Position numbers and translations under genes: made by a program. From assembly GCF_963675165.1 (NCBI RefSeq), contig NC_087378.1:1481525-1545524 (forward strand): a stretch of DNA of 64,000 bases, given 5' to 3'. Of the stretch, positions 30,635-63,510 are shown piece after piece; the stretch's first letter is position 1; every line of letters starts with the position of its first letter. The notes under the pieces were generated by a model. The model saw nothing but the letters and a program-made list of their open reading frames with translations, had not been told where the DNA came from and ran no database searches. This DNA is from Halichondria panicea. Lineage: Eukaryota > Porifera > Demospongiae > Suberitida > Halichondriidae.

Positions 30635-33491
30635 ATGGCTACTGGACTTTTAACAAAGGAGGCTGAGGCGTTTCGAAAACATTTGCACAATCTCATGTCG
30701 TTAATTCAATCCGACGATATTTCTCCTTTTGGGGCGGCACTGTTTGGCAAAAGCATTATTAGCCTTAACGTCAAGCAGTCGATTGATAGCCAGTCATTGG
30801 AAATCTCTACAAGAAAATCCAAACTTCTTGATGCGGTGATAAGCAAACTAGAGTCTTCACCAGAAAAATTTCAGGAGGTCTTGTATGTATTCAGGGAGGA
30901 ACAAGTCTACAGGGACATTGCTGACAGCATTGAAGAAACCTACAGGAATTTAAGTAAGTGACATTAATTTTATTCCATTGCATGGTTGTGTAAACACTGT
31001 TTTACCAATTTCAGGAGATGATCCTTCTGTGCGTGTTCTTCCACCTGCGATGTTAGAGTATGCCAAATACTTGCAGAAGAGTTACAACCGAGCAGCTTTT
31101 CCGATGGTCAACAAGTGGCCCCATCCACCTTGTCAGAAAGTCATTAAGTTGGCTGCTGTGGAGACGAAAGGAGAGCAAGTCACTAGAGAAGCATTCGATC
31201 CGAAAAAGTTCAGTAGATTTGATTCCGTTAATGATTATGTCCAGGGCAACAACGTTTCATTGTTCTCACTTACTGATCTGCTTGAGACCAAAAATGAAAG
31301 TACTCTGAGCCTAGTGATTGTGCAAGGAGCTCCTGGGATAGGCAAGTCGACATTTGCGTGGAAATTCTGTCAGGAATGGGCCGAGGGTAGGCTGTATCAG
31401 AAGTATGATCTCATTGTTTTGCTTCAAACGCGAGAGAGGTATGTTCGAGAAGCCAAGGAGCTAAAAGATCTCTTCAAGCACCTTAACAAGAAGCTGTCTG
31501 TGAATGTTGCTGATGATGTTATCTCTCGAAATGGCGAAAACGTTCTCTTTTTTTTCGAAGGCCTTGATGAGCTTCCCTCTCACTATTTCTCTAAAGAGTC
31601 CCTTCTCTTGGAAATTTTTCGAGGTGCTCTTCCCCAATTGACGATTGTAGTCACCAGCCGTCCGTGGGCAGCTCAGCAGCTTGTTGATCTTACCAACAAT
31701 CAGGTCACTCGTCGAGTAGACATCATAGGTTTCTTGAAGGAAGACATTTACGATTATGTCGTGCACTCTTTCGGGAAGGGAAAAGATTTGAAGGAGTTTA
31801 TGCAGTACTTCCGTACTCACCCTCAACTGGAGATGATAATGTACTCACCTCTCAATTGTGCGTTTGTTGTCCAGATCTACAAGGATTTCAAGCAGAGTCA
31901 GACGAAAGAAGATTTCCCTCACACACTGACCCAGCTCTACACCGCTCTAGTGCATCGATTCGTTCTGCAATTCATGAGGAATATGCCTGAATTTGCCTTC
32001 ACCAAATTTGTTAATTTGGAAAAGCTCCCAGATCCTGTCAACTTTTTCTTTTACCATCTTTGCTGTACCGCTTTTATGAGTTTCACCAGAGTCAGTGTTC
32101 AGGTAGCCTTCTCTGATGCGGATGTAGGCAATGTGGAAACCTTAGGCCTCATGCAATCCCGACCTGACACATCATTCAACAGTGAAAACACTCAAACACA
32201 TTGTTTCCTTCATTTCACAATCCAAGAGTTCCTTGCAGCTTTCCACCTCTCCCGACAATCACCTGAACAGCAAGAATGCTTCTTTCAGATACATCAGGGC
32301 GACCCGAAATTCTCTGTTTTACTCACGTTTCTGATTGGCCTAAACTGCTCCATTGTCAAGCACTTGAATCGTCCTTCTCCTTCCAGCGAGTTGGAACCAC
32401 ACCTCCTACACTGGCTATTTGAGTCTCAGTCTCCAGAAGACGTTGCTGCATTTCTCGGTAAAGAGGTTGTCTTCTTCCAAACGTACTCCAAACTTGCTCC
32501 TATTGATATCTACTCCCTTACTTACTGCCTAAGACAAAGTAATTGTACTTGGAATCTCATTGTCGATCTAGACGATCTCACCACTGTGTATGAGCCGACT
32601 AGTACTGCTGCTTTCACTGGTCACATTGACGAATTATCTATCTTCAATGCCAATGCAACTGCTATTCAAAAGTTTTTTTTCTCTCTTCCCCGTCGCCTCT
32701 TTGAGAAAATTCGGTTTCTGTACTTCTACAATCGAGAAGATATCAACATCGGGTTTGAGTACTACGAGATTCTCACCTCACTTTTCAAAGAGGGTCTTCT
32801 TCAAAACTTGGTTGAATTTCAATTCAATTATGCTCCAAGTTTGTCTGGAATTGGAGGAGTAATAGGAGCCCTTCATGAGTGCTGTTCTCGTCTTGAAACC
32901 CTGAAGATTGAGCGATGCCTCTTCACTGAGTCAGACATCCTACCACTGTGTAAAAGCATCTGCTCTCCTCATAGTCGTCTGTCTCGTCTGGCTCTCATTA
33001 GCATTACCTTCGAAGAAAACATCTTGAATTTCCTCAATAGTGCTCTCCCACATGCAAGGGCTCTGAAGAGGCTCGATCTCTCATTCAATCAATTGGAACT
33101 ATCCGATATTGAAATATTGGCACTTGCTACCGAATCTTCAACCATCCAAGCACTGAGGCTACGATCATGTTCAATTGGCCCCGATGGAGCCGAACTCCTA
33201 GCAGACTGTTTAGAGAAAAACTCATCCATTATGTTCCTATCATTAGCTCAAAATCAGATTGGGTTTAGTGGTGCTTCGGCCTTGGCTGAAATGCTGAAAG
33301 TGAACACTACCCTTCAAGATATCCGATTGAACGAAGATAAGTCCATTACAACGAGTGGTGCAGGACTGTTAATTGATGTACTTCTCAAACACAATAAAAT
33401 TGTTGAACATATTGAGATTGCTGAAAGCTGTGAGCCTGTGGAGTATGGATCAGCTCTCATGACTAAAACCAGTAGGATCAAATTTATGTAG
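30635..33491 (+). CDS. NACHT-LRR (NLR) innate immune receptor with death-fold N terminus
   Basis: Two exons, 30635-30953 and 31015-33491, 2796 nt, 931 residues. Residues 1-105 form a helical death-fold-like module, most like CARD (KLLDAVISKLESSPEKFQEV, YRDIADSIEETY). The NACHT domain follows: Walker A GAPGIGKST at about 211-219, Walker B-like VLFFFEGLDELP, sensor-1 region VVTSRPWA, and a winged-helix-like stretch. The last ~250 residues hold ribonuclease-inhibitor-type leucine-rich repeats (LKRLDLSFNQL, LRLRSCSIGPDGAELLADCL, MFLSLAQNQIGFSGASALAE). Demosponges carry large NLR families with a CARD or Death domain in this order; ligands are unknown. The intron right after the death fold separates the modules. 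The gene is intact. Confidence 0.92.
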
Positions 33492-55543: not shown

Positions 55544-57687
55544 ATGGCAAAATCTGCAAGGTTTCATCTGCTACTGATTGTAGCTTTGGAAATGGTGAGT
55601 CCCTAGACTGCAATAATCACTAATGATTCACCTGTTCTACTATCTGTGTAGGTTGTGTTTGCAATGGCTGACTACCATTTAGGCTACAACATTATCAGCT
55701 ACAGTAGCTCTAACAACACACTGGCCAATGGCACTTGCTGTGGTGAGACCTGTGATACAAGTTGTAGAACCACTCTTCGTCTGTGCTTCAGAGACGCTGG
55801 ACACCCACACAATGACGTTGATTCCAGTTGTACGATAGTGCAAAATCGTGAGAACGCAAATCAAGTCTTTTTTGATGCATCTTCGCAGAGTTCCATACCA
55901 AAATACTTCTCGGTATGTGTGCCAATTTTGGTAATGATAATTATTATTACTTATACCTACAGCAAACATTCCAGATATATGTCAGAGTCTCTCACAGTGT
56001 GAATGAGGACACAGCTACTGCCAACTTTGATCCTCCATTCACCGATCCACTCATTGATGAAATCTTCATTGAAGCCAATGTCAGTGCTGTCCTCTTTCCT
56101 AGCACTTTCTTTGTAATTACTGAAATGTACACTGTTACTGGAAACGTTGGAATAGCCACACTGACAATAGGAGTTAATGCTCGCTGTGCTGAGAACTACT
56201 TTGGTGATGGCTGTGAGATGCTTTGTGATGCAGATGGCATAACTAACTGCACTGCAGGTGAGAACACTACTAAAGTATTTACCACTTCTTACTCTCCCCC
56301 CACATATACACACAGTTCTCACTTCTCCTCAACCCCAAATAATGCCAACGGACAATCCAGAAACACCTAGTCAGACGTCCAGTTCCGACCAACCATCCAC
56401 CCCAACCACAGGCCCATTAGTACCCACTCCTGCCAACACCATAATTCCTATTGCAGTGGGTGTGTCCATTGCCGTCTTGGTCCTGATCATCATCGGAGTG
56501 ATCGTAATCATTCTCATTATTTACTGTGTTAAAAAAGGCAAGAAGGGATCTTGGAACCCCAAAAGTGAGTTTTTCTTGCGCACAAAATCCTCAACGGCTG
56601 TATCCTTCAATACCAAACAAGACTTTGTAGTGTACAACTCCCAGCTTGGGTAGATGTGCAAAAAAATTGGTACCTGTCATTTTTCTTTCAGGGAGTACTG
56701 AGCCTCAATTTACTTTGGAGAGGGCTGAAAGGAACCTCACCAGCAACATCAACAGGTTCAGTGTCATCAGTGACAATGGAGAAGAGGTGGAGTATGCAAT
56801 GGTCAACAAAAGTGAGTATTTCAGTCTACTCTTACCAATTCAATTACCCCCCTTGTCTATGTAGGTCCAGCTAGGACCTCTCGTGCTAGATCGCCTCCCA
56901 CACCACCCCCTCCTTACTCCTCTGATAAGCCCGAAGTTAGCGAAACCGAAGAGCCAGTAGAAATAGCACCAGCGATGGTAATTATCTGTTAATGTGTATC
57001 CATTATGTTATGCATGCACTCATAATTATTCCAGGACTTTGTGGTTAGGAATAAGGATACGGAAGAACGCTTTGCTGGTTATGAGACGGTAGACTTTGGT
57101 CCTTCAACAACAACAACAGAGGAAAATGTAAACATCCTAATTTAGCTATCGTTGAATGGCTCTAACCGGTAGGAAATGTGACCAACGGCAAAATACAAAA
57201 GTAGGAAATGTGGCCTTAGTAGGAATAATGGCTCAACCGGTAGGAAATGTGGCCCAGTATGAATAAATAGACGAAACGGTATAGAAAACGTTTGTTCAGT
57301 ATTAATGTTGTCTTTGAGAGGTCATACAAGTTGGATAGTTGAGTGTAGAATGTGTTGCTATGGGTAAGCCGATATGAAATGCCAGCCAATCAACCAATTA
57401 AATGTTATCCAACTTCACCACATCACAAATACTATGCACACCACTCACTCCATTCCACAGGGAGAAACTGAAGACCAGCCATCTGATATACGGTATGCCT
57501 CTCTGAACATTCACCAAGGCAACGGGTTCGGGGCTGAGAATGTGCAGGAGATTGCATTTGAAGTAGAAGCTGCTGACACTGAGGAGGACCAGGTCAGTTA
57601 AAAATTAATGTTAAATTCCCATGTCATGGAAACTTTTCAACACAGGAACCAGTGAGCTATACCGTGGTCAAGCATCAGGACAGCTAA
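55544..57687 (+). CDS. Delta-like ectodomain, one-pass receptor with ITIM tail (copy A)
   Basis: Nine exons: 55544-55594, 55652-55912, 55963-56257, 56316-56564, 56692-56811, 56865-56977, 57035-57127, 57461-57592, 57646-57687. They total 1356 nt, 451 residues. A signal peptide (FHLLLIVALEMVVFAMA) leads to an MNNL-like module of Notch ligands (YHLGYNII, NGTCCGETCDTSC, TTLRLCF) and a shortened DSL-like module (VNARCAENYFGDGCEMLC). There are no EGF repeats. A Thr/Pro stalk and a transmembrane helix (about 244-272) follow. The tail has ITIM-type motifs VEYAMV (Y320), IRYASL (Y406) and VSYTVV (Y443), plus AGYETV (Y379) and a PPPPY motif (Y343). This suggests a cell-surface inhibitory receptor recruiting SH2 phosphatases. 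The MNNL/DSL relation is my reading; the ITIMs are seen directly. Confidence 0.82.
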
Positions 57688-57858
57688 TCAAAGAGACATT
57701 TAAGCCGCTCCAAGAATAAATTTACAGGATTTTTCAATCATATATTTTTACAATTCATATTAAGCGTTGTGTATACAGATGTAATTTTTAGTTGTTCAAT
57801 ATTATAGATTGTTATGTTTATCAAAGTTGTTTTTGCTATTAAAATTTGCTAATGTAAT

Positions 57859-58650
57859 TTGACTGTTATGAAACCTGTGTGTGAAGGATGTGATGCAGAA
57901 CTGCATGCACAAAATAAAGGAATTCACCATTTAGGGATTTCTGTAATAAACAATACTCTGACACTGGATGATGACGAGCTAGTCAAACATGGACTGTGCA
58001 GACACCCTATACCCACATTACATTCCTTATCACTGGACTACCAGGTATTTCTTCACAAATAATGTGAGTCTTAATGTCACCACACAGTGTGTGCATTATC
58101 CTTATATGCAGGTTGTAGCGGACTACAGACTTAACTTTGGCGCTGACAACGTTGTACTCCTCACCTCTTGTACAATGCAGGACCACCCTCACTATGTGCT
58201 TCATGGAATCACAAAAACTACCGAGTAAAGACGAGGCTGAATGTGAGCATTAAGTGGTTGTGTAGTTAACATCGATAGCACGATTGACAACAAACTGGAG
58301 CAGCTCAGTATTTGAGCAATATTATCCAGTAAGGACTGATGCATGGTACTCAAACATAGTATCTTTACCACTGTGGTGCACTATCAGTCTATCACAGGGC
58401 ACTTTCCAGTTCTACACCAGTGTCGACTCAGAAAAATTTTCAGATAGTGTGCATGCTTATCGAGGCAGAGTTGCCAACAGATCTCTACAATCAGCCTATT
58501 TTACAGAGCGGTCAGTACAGTGGCAAAGGTGAACTAACGAGCACCAGTTTGAATGTATCTTTCACTGTTCGCTGTGAGGAAGGTTTCTTTGGTGAAGGAT
58601 GCGAGAGACTATGCAGTTTCATAATGGGTAGCTACCTGAAAAATAAGTGA
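57859..58650 (+). pseudogene. Degenerate third copy of the Delta-like/ITIM receptor ectodomain
   Basis: Between the two intact copies lies sequence with pieces of the same ectodomain in order: an HLGISVINNTL stretch, VVADYRLN after a splice-like TGCAG, a TFQFYTSVDSEKFSDS stretch (compare TFQIYVRVSHSVNED), and then IEAEL...LNVSFTVRCEEGFFGEGCERLC (compare VNARCAENYFGDGCEMLC). The pieces fall in different frames, and no transmembrane or tail exons follow before copy B. It is either a decayed copy or a very divergent, partly rebuilt paralogue. The final DSL-like motif is better conserved than the rest. Confidence 0.55.
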
Positions 58651-59454
58651 GCTGTAGATCTACTCGATCATGCATTACCTGCTATAAATGCATGCAAATT
58701 TAGGACACTATTAATTTCGTCACTAGTCTAGCTATATATACATTGAAGTTCTCCCAAATATAGTTTATGGTGTTACTGAATAATGGAATTGTTCCATGCC
58801 CTGCAGTTTAACCTGGCCCCATTGTGTACAAAGGCTACAATATTGGTGCTATAGACAGTGCAGTCGTGTTTGGAGTCCTAGGTACTAGGTATAATCGTGT
58901 GCACCACATTGGATACTCTATTTGCAACAGGCGCAGAAAGTAAACAAAACAAAAACTAATGCAATACGACATAGTTCTAGTTCATCATTTACTTCGTTTC
59001 TGTATTTTAGTATCAGGATTGTTTCTTCTCAGTCACAATACTATTACAGACATACAAATGTAGCCAGCCCCACCCCTCTCCAACAATATGCATTTACATG
59101 ATAATCAACACACATGTTCTTATCAAAGATGATTGTCCTCTTTACAAGCAACACTAAAGTGAGATGCACTCTTAGATGAGCTACAATATATGGCGTATAA
59201 AGGTAAAATAGTATTCAAGGTGGAAAATTAATGTTATACAGTAGCTCTTTAGTCTTACATGCCACTGTCTCCATGTAATCATGTACTGTATCTCACAGTA
59301 TACCTTGGTCCCAAGCACCCACTGATTGGCTATAATTGATTGAAACTAATTATGCATGACTGTTGTTGTATTACAGATCTAGAGATATAAAGTAAACACT
59401 CATGACTGCATGTACTTACACAGGGAGTTGACTGTTTACTAGTTACTGAACGAG
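58651..59454. other. Intergenic region upstream of receptor copy B
   Basis: No gene recognised. The right half (about 59260-59454) is a diverged duplicate of the region upstream of copy A, with small insertions. Confidence 0.55.
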
Positions 59455-61453
59455 ATGGCAAAATCTACAAGGTTTCATCTGCTACTCATAACTTTGGAAA
59501 TGGTGAGTTCTATTACAATAAATCGCCACTCTGTTAGTGTTATCCAATCTGTGTAGGTTGTGTTTGCAATGGCCGACTACCATTTAGGCTACAACATTAT
59601 CAGCTACAGTAGCACTAACAACACACTGGCCAATGGCACTTGCTGTGGTGAGACCTGTGATACAAGTTGTAGAACCACTCTTCGTCTGTGCTTCAGAGAC
59701 GCTGGACATCCACACAATGACGTTGATTCCAGTTGTACGATAGTGCAAATTCGTGAGAACACAAATCAAGTCTTTTTTACTGCATCTTCGCAGAGTTCCA
59801 TATTAAAATACTTCTCGGTATGTGTGCCAATTTTGGTAATGATAATCATTATTACTTACACCTACAGCAAACATTTCAGATATATGTCAGAGTCTCTCAC
59901 AGTGTGAATGAGGACACATCTGCTGCCGACTTTGATCCTCCGTTCACCGATCCACTCATTGATGAAATCTTCATTGAAGCCAATGTCAATGCTGTCCTCT
60001 TTCCTAGCACTTTCTTTATAATTACTGAAATGTACACTGTTACTGGAAACGTTGGAATAGCCACACTGACAATAGGAGTTAATGCTCGCTGTGCTGAGAA
60101 CTACTTTGGTGATGGCTGTGAGATGCTTTGTGATGCAGATGGCGTAACTAACTGCACTACAGGTGAGAACACTACTAAAGTATTTACCACTTCTTACTCC
60201 CCCCACACATATACACACAGTTCTCACTCCTCCTCCCCCACCCCAAACAATGACAACGGAAGCTCTAGAAACTAACCCTAGTCAGACGTCCAGTACTGAC
60301 CAACCAAACTTCCCAACCACAGGCCCATTAGTACCCATTACTGACAACACCATAATTCCTATTGCAGTGGGTGTGTCCATTGCTGTATTGGTTCTGATCA
60401 TCATCGGAGTGATCGCAATCATACTCATCATTTACTTCTTCAACAGAAGCAAGAACAGAGCTTGGAACCCCAAAAGTGAGAGATTTTTGCAGCAGATAAT
60501 TGTGCACATACAAAAGAATGCTTGTATAACAGCTCCCCCAAAATTTATCTTTGTAACTAGGCGATGCATGGAGCTATTATACACAACTAACAAGTGCACA
60601 ATACCTGTGCAATAATGACTGTCCATGCACTTTCTTTCAGGGAGTACTCAGCCCCACTTTACTATGGAGAGGGCTGAAAGGTCCATCACCAACAACATAG
60701 ACGAAGAGGTGGAGTATGCAACCATCAATGAACTGGTAAATGTCTGTTTTGATGCATATCAACTCACTGCATACGTACACTCACATTCCAGCACTTTGTG
60801 GTGAGCAATGAGGAAGAGGAAGATCGCTTAGCTGGTTATGAGACAATAAAGCGTCTTCCTCCAACAAAAGAAGCGAAGGTAAAGTGTTATATCGTTGAAT
60901 GGCTGAGAACCCACTAGGAAATGTGGGGTCTATAGTAGGATTGTTGTGTTTGGAGGTTAAGTGTATACAATGTCATTCATTGTGAATGCATGTGTGTTGC
61001 AATGAGTAAGCAAAGAACAACAACTTTGGAATCTCAATTATTCTAGAGTTATATCACGTTCTATAATTCCACAGGGGACAACTGAAGAACAGTCATCAGC
61101 ATTAACGTATGCGTCTCTGGACATTCAACCAAGTGGGGCAGTCATCCGTGAGATAGATTCTGAAGAGAATGACACTGAGGACGAGGTCAGTAATTATGAC
61201 AACATTCGTTCACTTTCAATATCTCTTATTGTACACTGTACTTATAATGTACAGTGAGTGTGCCATAAGAATTTTAAAGTGAATGAATGTATTATGGTGC
61301 TATGCCTAAATAACCGAATTGATTGACTCCTACTGCATCAATATACTGTATAAATTTGTGACAGCAGATCTAATCCATACTGTGTTCCAATGTCATGCAA
61401 TGCAGGATCAAAAACCAGTACGTTATGCTGTGATCAAGCAACACAGCGATTAA
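59455..61453 (+). CDS. Delta-like ectodomain, one-pass receptor with ITIM tail (copy B)
   Basis: Eight exons: 59455-59502, 59557-59817, 59868-60162, 60221-60475, 60641-60735, 60792-60878, 61075-61185, 61406-61453. They total 1200 nt, 399 residues. Signal peptide, MNNL-like and shortened DSL-like ectodomain, stalk and transmembrane helix (about 246-273) are almost identical to copy A; exons 2 and 3 have the same lengths and the 50-bp intron between them differs at two positions. The tail differs more. The exon carrying PPPPY in copy A is absent, but the tyrosine motifs remain: VEYATI (Y312), AGYETI (Y334), LTYASL (Y359) and VRYAVI (Y391). Three of the four fit ITIM. All splice sites are intact and the frame is complete, so this looks functional. 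Confidence 0.82.
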
Positions 61454-61929: not shown

Positions 61930-63510
61930 CTACTGTATGACACAGCATCCACCCTTTGCCTGCAAGAAGTATACAAGTGGTAAAGGGTGTCCCATTAAAA
62001 AGTCATGCATGTCCTTACTTCTTTGTAAAATGCTTTCGAGGTCCCACTCAATTTGTCAGTTTTCTGCACTAGATCGTCCAGTTTTTCTCCTCTCTCCAGA
62101 AGCTGCTCTATCGTCTCGTGCTGGGAGGGAGGCGGAGTTAGATAGCTAAATGTATGCACCAAGAGTATAATTACTTAAGCCATGGAGTGAACATGTTATT
62201 ACAATCTGGACTCACCAACACAATCTTAGTCTCATCCAAGTCACTCTGTACTCTCATCATGGGGTCAGCTTCCCTGGGGTCCTGTAGAGAAGGAGGTCAC
62301 ATGATTGAAGCTCTCATACCAGAAAATGCATTTGCCCTACTTGATATCTCTTCAGGTGTGCATCCAGGGGAGGGTATGAGAGATCACTGGAGAGAATACT
62401 TATCACTAAATAAATAGACGAAATCTATACACATTGTTGCATGCACTGACAAAGTTAGGCCAGGTCCACCCCATCACACCACACACCTGGAGGGAGTATC
62501 CCATGACGACCGTGGGAAGTCTGAGCTGAACTCCTCCATGATCTGAGTGGACACACACACTCTCCATTAATATACAAATAATAACATGGCCACAAACATA
62601 CAGTACACTATTAGGTGCACTAAGTTATGAGCTATACTATGGTAAGGGTCACCTTGCTCATGAGGGTGAAGGCTACTCTGGGCGGATAATCATTGTCTGC
62701 AATCACCACACACGCTAGAGAGTCTGATCTCACATGAACATGGCACTTATAATCTGTGCAGGAGGACAAGAGTGTATACACAAACACAATATGGCTTGAA
62801 AACAGCTGATGATAAAACCCTATCAAGTGTGTTCATACAATGTGTGAGCCAATGATGGTAATGCCAAGTACACTGTAATTGTACAATGTTCATACAATGT
62901 ATATTAGGGTAGGGCAGTGATGGTAATGCCATGCAAGTACACTGTGTACACGCAATGTGGACTAAGGGTAGGCCAGTGATGGTAATGCCAAGTACACTGT
63001 GTACACGCAATGTGGACTAAGGGTAGGCCAGTGATGGTAATGCCAAGTACACAGTGTACACGCAATGTGGACTAAGGGTAGGCCAGTGATGGTAATGCCA
63101 AGTACACTGCACTGTAATTATACAACACACAATGTGTATTAGGGTAGGCCAGTAATGGTAATGCCAAGTACACTGTGTACAAGCAATGTGGACTAAGGGT
63201 AGTGATGGTACTCCCTGTACCTTGCTCTTTCACTGATTGTCTCTGTCCACTGGCGGTTTTCTCCACTAGGATGTCACTCGTAAACGCCATGAACTCTCGT
63301 ACACTGTAGCAGTGTAACATAGGTAGTATTAGTCATTTACACACATCACTATTGTTAAGGACAGCATATTTGCAAATGTAGACCCACTTTGCAAGACATA
63401 GCTTACCCTGATCTCTGAAAGAAGCCAAACGAAGACAATTCATAGCTGGCTTTTTTCTGGACAGGCTTGGCTGACTTATACAGAATGGTGATGGAAAATA
63501 TTTTAACCAT
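61930..63510 (-). CDS. YKT6: R-SNARE YKT6 with a 7-nt microexon
   Basis: Exons 63510-63407, 63303-63221, 62753-62653, 62542-62487, 62347-62341, 62281-62216, 62120-62019, 61959-61930, 549 nt, 182 residues (human 198). The longin domain has MVKIFSITILYK, FGFFQRS, REFMAFTSDILVEKTASGQR, VRSDSLACVVIADNDYPPRV. The R-SNARE helix has READPMMRVQSDLDETKI and LLERGEKLDDLVQK. The end CCVIQ matches human CCAIM: one palmitoylatable Cys and a CaaX box. YKT6 works in ER-Golgi, endosomal and autophagosome fusion. Without the 7-nt exon (ATATCAA) the frame breaks; with it the protein reads SRYQDPREADP, like human SRYQNPREADP. Confidence 0.93.
62855..63205. repeat. 55-bp minisatellite in a YKT6 intron
   Basis: About six tandem units of roughly 55 bp containing GCCAGTGATGGTAATGCCAA and TGTACACGCAATGTGGACTA. 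The inner copies are nearly identical and the outer ones diverged. Confidence 0.9.

Follow-up and report, generated by a model that had tools for sequence, protein, structure and literature searches.

The DNA analysed here, a 64,000-nucleotide stretch of the genome of the sponge Halichondria panicea (the window), contains at positions 55544..61453 two neighbouring genes, referred to as A and B, whose predicted products join a head resembling that of Delta-type Notch ligands to a cytoplasmic tail carrying immunoreceptor tyrosine-based inhibitory motifs (ITIMs). These genes, located on contig C2 of the 131 Mb genome, appear to belong to a larger family of ITIM-type receptors of Notch-ligand origin, for which sequence comparison gives good support. 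On balance, we think it probable that A and B are themselves ITIM-type receptors derived from Delta-type Notch ligands, and that they would inhibit signalling through the phosphatase SHP-2.

Two open receptor genes

Position 55544 is the start of the ATG of gene A, and 61453 the last base of the stop codon of gene B. Once spliced, the two genes yield open frames of 451 and 399 amino acids, with GT-AG borders at all introns, bearing out the two intact genes described in an earlier note on this DNA. A reading of A and B as pseudogenes was ruled out, both frames being open and their splice sites intact. Each protein runs from a hydrophobic N-terminus through an ectodomain, a Ser/Thr/Pro stalk and a single strongly hydrophobic helix to the cytoplasmic tail. 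The signal peptides that the earlier note had assigned to both proteins fared unequally, the N-terminus lying above a hydropathy mark of 1.6 in A and below it in B. No EGF exon is found between the DSL region and the membrane in the gene models of A and B or in the public model of A, as that note had proposed.

This public model (P0001, annotated ‘uncharacterized protein LOC135331274 isoform X2’, H. panicea) equals gene A minus exon 7 and plus a 50-residue N-terminal extension. Because the frame of B carries an in-frame TAG five codons upstream of the ATG that matches the start of A, we regard the extension as doubtful and take the methionine of MAKS as the start; residues 1-50 of P0001, which would bury the signal peptide, are probably 5' untranslated region. 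A broken third copy sits between genes A and B (Table 1).

A Delta-like head

Homology of the A and B ectodomains with Delta-type Notch ligands is supported by profile comparisons and by a common intron. In hhalign, an alignment of A and B matched four H. panicea Deltas with a probability of 98.2 (E 2.7e-14, 153 columns). Searched against the PDB, A and B alone returned Jagged-1 first (E 0.0041), followed by Delta-like proteins with E-values of 0.04-0.05, so that four of the five matches were Notch ligands; the other one, a pseudoperoxidase (E 0.062), is unrelated. With A and B as two of the eight ectodomains in a profile, all 12 matches were Notch ligands (best E 2.8e-32), and a profile led by relatives of A matched Serrate (0.0041) and Delta (0.006), its membrane helix also drawing in sodium-channel beta subunits. 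Pfam matches such as Stevor and Chordopox A13L were set aside, being due to membrane helices or low complexity.

A phase-0 intron interrupts the middle of the MNNL region in A, in B, in the paralogue P0002 and in 8/8 further MNNL loci checked (L043, L009, L047, L015, L014, L060, L055 and L069), which include Deltas and genes encoding MNNL and EGF modules. The MNNL-like head named in the earlier note is borne out by this intron together with the hhalign match to Deltas. The intron is also a useful marker for finding more members.

The shortened DSL-like module of the same note proved to be shorter than claimed: its first half is present, C-AENYFGDG-C-EML-C-DADGITN-C, with four cysteines (179, 188, 192 and 200 in A) as against six in the full domain. 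The short form recurs in eight of nine close relatives, those that cover the region (P0018, P0020-P0025 and P0027; P0026 does not cover it).

Tail motifs above chance expectation

A strict ITIM was defined as [ILVS]xYxx[ILV], and chance levels were obtained from 20000 shuffles per tail. Tails A and B contain three strict ITIMs each, a count reached in 3/20000 shuffles for each tail; with a looser motif that also accepts T at -2, and with slightly different tail bounds, 11 and 7 of 20000 shuffles reach the count. All motifs quoted in the earlier note are present, above shuffle expectation. Four tyrosines are common to the two tails, the fourth lying in GYETV / GYETI, the exon of which is skipped in P0001, and a PPPPY motif occurs in the A tail only.

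At the four common tyrosines, residue class at motif positions -2, 0, +1 and +3 is kept in 16/16 cases, as compared with 68/107 of the other aligned tail positions (Fisher p 0.0013). Synonymous and nonsynonymous divergence between A and B (dS / dN) is 0.41 / 0.31 in the tail and 0.037 / 0.031 in the ectodomain; since the tails have diverged to this extent, conservation of the motif positions does not merely reflect recent duplication. Exons 2-3 together with introns 2-3 (window 55652-56315 and 59557-60220) are 96-97% identical while the remaining gene has diverged, introns 1, 4, 5/6 and 7 being 71-77% identical and intron 8 85% over 53 aligned bases, and for this reason the heads are likely to have been homogenised recently, most simply by gene conversion.

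A genome search with the A tail returned four pieces of A, one piece of B (E 0.59) and no other receptor tail, short exons limiting this test. Protein searches found no complete tail from another named sponge.

Related genes in the genome

Genome-wide scans gave 53 MNNL matches at E<=0.1, 39 of them above the Pfam cut-off and many in tandem clusters, and 28 DSL matches, 28/28 above cut-off. Contig C2 carries, at 1.46 Mb and 2.04-2.08 Mb, genes with the order MNNL, DSL, stalk and transmembrane helix, in which the DSL exon continues directly into stalk and helix. The public models P0002, P0003 and P0004 follow this EGF-less plan; Pfam scores their DSL domains at 26.6-33.7 bits and, with E-values allowed up to 0.1, reports no EGF family in them. 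Strict ITIMs number four in P0002, three in P0004 and one in P0003, counts reached in 27, 126 and 606 of 20000 shuffles, respectively, the last being less unusual. The receptor family that the earlier note had suggested is therefore represented in this genome by relatives sharing the plan, EGF-less MNNL-DSL receptors on C2 with ITIMs.

Exon plan and intron phases of the tail were compared in detail for one C2 paralogue, P0002. After its transmembrane exon comes an LYASVNK exon with phase-1 introns on both sides, like exon 5 of A (VEYAMVNK); its ITIM exons include one with IVYADL and a last exon with VQYSHIK, where the last exon of A has VSYTVVK. The P0002 tail YSEIESETKQPQIVYADL also shows the pair spacing of an immunoreceptor tyrosine-based activation motif (YxxI-x10-YxxL), yet 834/20000 shuffles contain at least one.

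MNNL genes are expanded in tandem on C6 (3.97-4.03 Mb), C12 (1.82-1.87 and 5.77-5.78 Mb), C14 (5.64-5.73 Mb) and C9 (6.58 Mb). Several of these genes read as MNNL, short DSL, EGF repeats and transmembrane helix, with tyrosine tails that differ; one EGF-bearing gene on C6 has an ITIM-like VSYATV in a downstream frame, and two MNNL-EGF loci on C14 have NPIY tails.

Exon relatives of A and B are also encoded on short contigs (P0018, P0020-P0027). Apart from the near-identical P0018, no close counterpart of these relatives was found in the present assembly, A and B being its only close sequences; the relatives may reflect strong variation among individuals, or else they come from related species. 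Their cysteines and frame are kept, and the open frame is weak evidence, because predicted proteins are open by construction.

Proposed mechanism and its reach

According to the explanation that we favour, A and B would be duplicated single-pass type I receptors, the ectodomain of which descends from a Delta-type ligand that kept its C2-like MNNL module and the first DSL half, and lost the second DSL half and the EGF repeats. A ligand on an adjacent cell or microbe may contact the receptor, whereupon a Src-type kinase would phosphorylate tyrosines of the tail; SHP-2 could then dock through its tandem SH2 domains onto pairs of ITIMs, for example those of Y406 and Y443 in A or of Y359 and Y391 in B, and the docked phosphatase would dampen tyrosine-kinase signalling in the receptor-bearing cell. 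Skipping of exon 7 in A would take away one further tyrosine. We infer inhibition by the A and B tails from their motifs.

The genome contains an SH2-SH2-PTP gene of SHP-2 type (C3:8404573-8406287, minus strand). When its two SH2 domains, in an approximate join, were searched against the PDB, human PTPN11 ranked first among 82 matching sequences (E 9.2e-81), and the sequence HCSAGIGRTG is encoded by an exon of this stretch. Tyrosine-phosphatase domains are matched 176 times in the genome, and among the matches listed most are on C4; several SH2 matches are clustered at C4:5.18-5.50 Mb.

If the tails act as ITIMs, sponges would possess SHP-2-based inhibitory receptor signalling built on an ectodomain of Notch-ligand origin. 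Such a result would bear on the question whether inhibitory checkpoint signalling dates back to the first animals and needs no immunoglobulin (Ig) fold, would supply clustered candidate genes for sponge allorecognition and symbiont tolerance, and would outline a route by which Delta ligands could become receptors.

A wider reading, which we put forward tentatively and regard as doubtful, is that the Notch-ligand head has been co-opted for recognition in a large, clustered receptor repertoire, with branches distinguished by their phosphotyrosine tails (ITIM in the EGF-less genes on C2, ITIM-like VSYATV on C6, NPIY on C14). The ITIM branch could then provide contact-dependent inhibition, directed at self/non-self or symbionts, through SHP-2, as a checkpoint independent of Ig and lectin domains. 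The features of this branch are homogenised heads, diverged tails, a pseudogene and further variants found only outside this assembly.

Weighing the alternatives

Several observations weigh against the interpretation of A and B as inhibitory receptors of Delta origin. Pfam scores their MNNL modules at 17.5 and 18.2 bits (E 0.003 and 0.0019), under the 22.5 cut-off, and finds no DSL match in either, and the genome scans, with 53 MNNL and 28 DSL matches, did not pick up A or B; the labels of the earlier note would therefore fail the curated cut-off, the MNNL part being visible below threshold and the DSL part having no match. Bona fide Deltas are included in the profiles that gave very low E-values, and a PDB search with just the four Deltas does equally well, so that the eight-row profile speaks for the family and not for A and B by themselves. 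AlphaFold predictions for P0001 from two 16-row alignments were of low confidence (mean predicted local distance difference test 45.9 and 43.6, predicted template modelling score 0.26 and 0.25). In a 12-row tree of the heads, suggestive of a grouping with the C2 receptors, A and B join these at 88/90 with a long-branch warning, and in a tree without the C2 rows they fall weakly (65/56) beside one Delta. As for the tail, tyrosine conservation rests on two paralogous sequences; one further partial tail, P0028, has VEYAMV and resembles an allele of A. A search with the full-length A protein returned P0001, that is, gene A itself, as the sole hit among 6672 candidates. The LYASVNK exon of P0002 has Asn at -2 and hence no strict ITIM, and YxxPhi motifs serve clathrin adaptors too.

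This last point leads to an alternative that we rate as unlikely, namely that the tail motifs are mainly endocytic YxxPhi signals or multi-purpose SH2 docking sites, and that A and B are uptake or adhesion receptors rather than inhibitory ones. Position +3 is hydrophobic at all four common tyrosines, and YxxPhi counts are high as well (reached in 74 and 12 of 20000 shuffles); the P0002 and P0004 tails, with 16 and 14 tyrosines of varied type, and the two NPIY tails on C14, typical of PTB or endocytic adaptors, fit this view. YxxPhi does not, however, require the hydrophobic residue found at -2 of 3/4 common tyrosines in both genes, nor the Ala at +1 of 5/6 ITIMs, and even with tyrosines fixed the strict ITIM count is reached in just 2 (A) and 3 (B) of 20000 shuffles, which favours ITIM-type tails.

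We consider it distinctly unlikely that A and B are divergent Notch ligands, Delta paralogues acting as cis-inhibitors or weak ligands whose tail tyrosines only regulate the ligand. The homology of the ectodomain with Deltas agrees with such a role, as do three matches to the Notch repeat (LNR) in the genome, on C10 and C17. It is opposed by the loss of the second DSL half, shared with the relatives of short DSL form, by the missing EGF repeats and by tail motif classes that are kept while the rest of the tail drifts. The residues by which Jagged-1 contacts Notch are located in the DSL loop lost from A and B. A Notch link, raised as a possibility in the earlier note, is weakened because the second half of the DSL domain is absent. 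The loss is not decisive against a Notch-ligand role, because Deltas of the sponge Amphimedon queenslandica also lack conservation of the essential bilaterian DSL binding residues, and the EGF-less AmqDelta4 and the predicted SH2/PTB sites of AmqDelta tails likewise speak for a ligand, according to the available part of the report on them (PMC3482393).

Chance assembly or a gene-model artefact, in which lucky ITIM-like strings or head exons joined to unrelated tail exons would account for the proteins, is extremely improbable: short motifs are common and Pfam scores are sub-threshold, but the exons of both paralogues coincide with those of the public model, save for exons 6 and 7 of A and the N-terminus, P0002 has the same exon phases and tyrosine exons, and the shuffle tests argue against luck.

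Features of the locus

Table 1. Genes, exons and gene relics at positions 55544..61453 of the window
Feature	Position in window	Strand	Basis
Gene A: signal peptide, MNNL-like, short DSL, stalk, transmembrane helix, ITIM tail; 9 exons, 451 aa	55544..57687	+	splice model; RefSeq LOC135331274 isoform X2
A exon 1: signal peptide MAKSARFHLLLIVALEM	55544..55594	+	hydropathy windows from residues 4-10 above 1.6, one excepted
A exon 2: first half of MNNL-like module; phase-0 intron at its end	55652..55912	+	splice model, alignment
A exon 3: second half of MNNL-like module and short DSL (CAENYFGDGCEMLCDADGITNC)	55963..56257	+	splice model, profile comparison
A exon 4: Ser/Thr/Pro stalk and transmembrane helix	56316..56564	+	hydropathy up to 3.65
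A exon 5: ITIM VEYAMV; both ends phase 1, like the LYASVNK exon of P0002	56692..56811	+	splice model
A exon 6: Pro-rich, with PPPPY as a possible SH3/WW site; without equivalent in the model of B	56865..56977	+	splice model
A exon 7: AGYETV; left out in RefSeq isoform X2	57035..57127	+	splice model, RefSeq comparison
A exon 8: ITIM IRYASL	57461..57592	+	splice model
A exon 9: ITIM VSYTVV, then stop	57646..57687	+	splice model
Possible third-copy relic, MNNL piece (weak)	58176..58232	+	tblastn with A/B, E 0.07-0.08
Third-copy relic, DSL piece (CEEGFFGEGCERLC)	58516..58614	+	tblastn with A/B, E 3e-6 to 4e-6; genome search E 0.0036
Gene B: plan as gene A; ITIMs VEYATI, LTYASL, VRYAVI; 8 exons, 399 aa	59455..61453	+	splice model
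Gene B exons	59455-59502, 59557-59817, 59868-60162, 60221-60475, 60641-60735, 60792-60878, 61075-61185, 61406-61453	+	splice model

Elsewhere in the window, about 22 kb from gene A, lies an NLR-type gene with an 837-amino-acid open frame containing NACHT (9e-21) and LRR (30978-33488, +), and a short tandem repeat with a spacing of mostly 55 bp occupies 62934-63230.

Comparison with known systems

Within the open-licence literature, judged mostly from titles and the beginnings of abstracts, we found no description of an MNNL/DSL head combined with an ITIM tail. The terms Notch, ITIM, Delta and DSL do not occur in the main text of the paper on the immune repertoire of H. panicea (PMC8242945), and two reviews name ITIM and sponges without, in their available parts, linking both (PMC11999971, PMC9505182).

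Among the closest known systems are the Delta-type Notch ligands of sponges, in particular AmqDelta4 of A. queenslandica, which, as far as the available part of the report describes it, has MNNL and DSL and no EGF repeats (PMC3482393), a correction to the earlier note's statement that Delta and Jagged proteins have EGF repeats. AmqDelta4 resembles A and B in its signal peptide, MNNL cysteine pattern, DSL domain, lack of EGF and single transmembrane helix, and differs from them in that A and B have half a DSL domain (4 Cys) and three ITIM-type motifs each. Predictions in the same part of that report place SH2 sites in the AmqDelta1-4 tails and PTB sites in the AmqDelta2-5 tails (PMC3482393), and to that extent the earlier note's contrast with Delta tails needs correction. 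Within H. panicea, the C2 receptors (LOC135330900, LOC135330905 and LOC135330925) share with A and B the domain order and the phase-0 MNNL intron, whereas their DSL domain is fuller and two long members have 14-16 tail tyrosines, including EEPxYS repeats.

Vertebrate ITIM receptors such as Siglec, LILR and PECAM have Ig ectodomains; their motifs are alike in form to those described here, for example LTYASL in B, with no homology looked for or seen. The ectodomain of Hydractinia alr is of Ig type, and that of Draper-II consists of EMI and EGF repeats. In Draper-II the ITIM recruits the phosphatase Corkscrew, according to the available part of the paper (PMC4503800), so that the earlier note's contrast with vertebrate ITIM receptors, with their Ig or lectin heads, needs widening. 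Like A and B, Draper-II is a receptor with an ITIM tail, and unlike them it has an ectodomain unrelated to MNNL/DSL and an ITIM form that is a splice variant. The allorecognition receptor candidates alr of Hydractinia and FcoR of Botryllus carry ITIMs as well, as stated in the accessible portion of PMC12065747, and thus resemble A and B as invertebrate membrane receptors with such motifs, alr and FcoR being located at allorecognition loci; the FcoR ectodomain, in contrast to that of A and B, is of Ig type (PMC12065747). The separate parts of A and B were known beforehand, and the family-level finding extends beyond these two genes.

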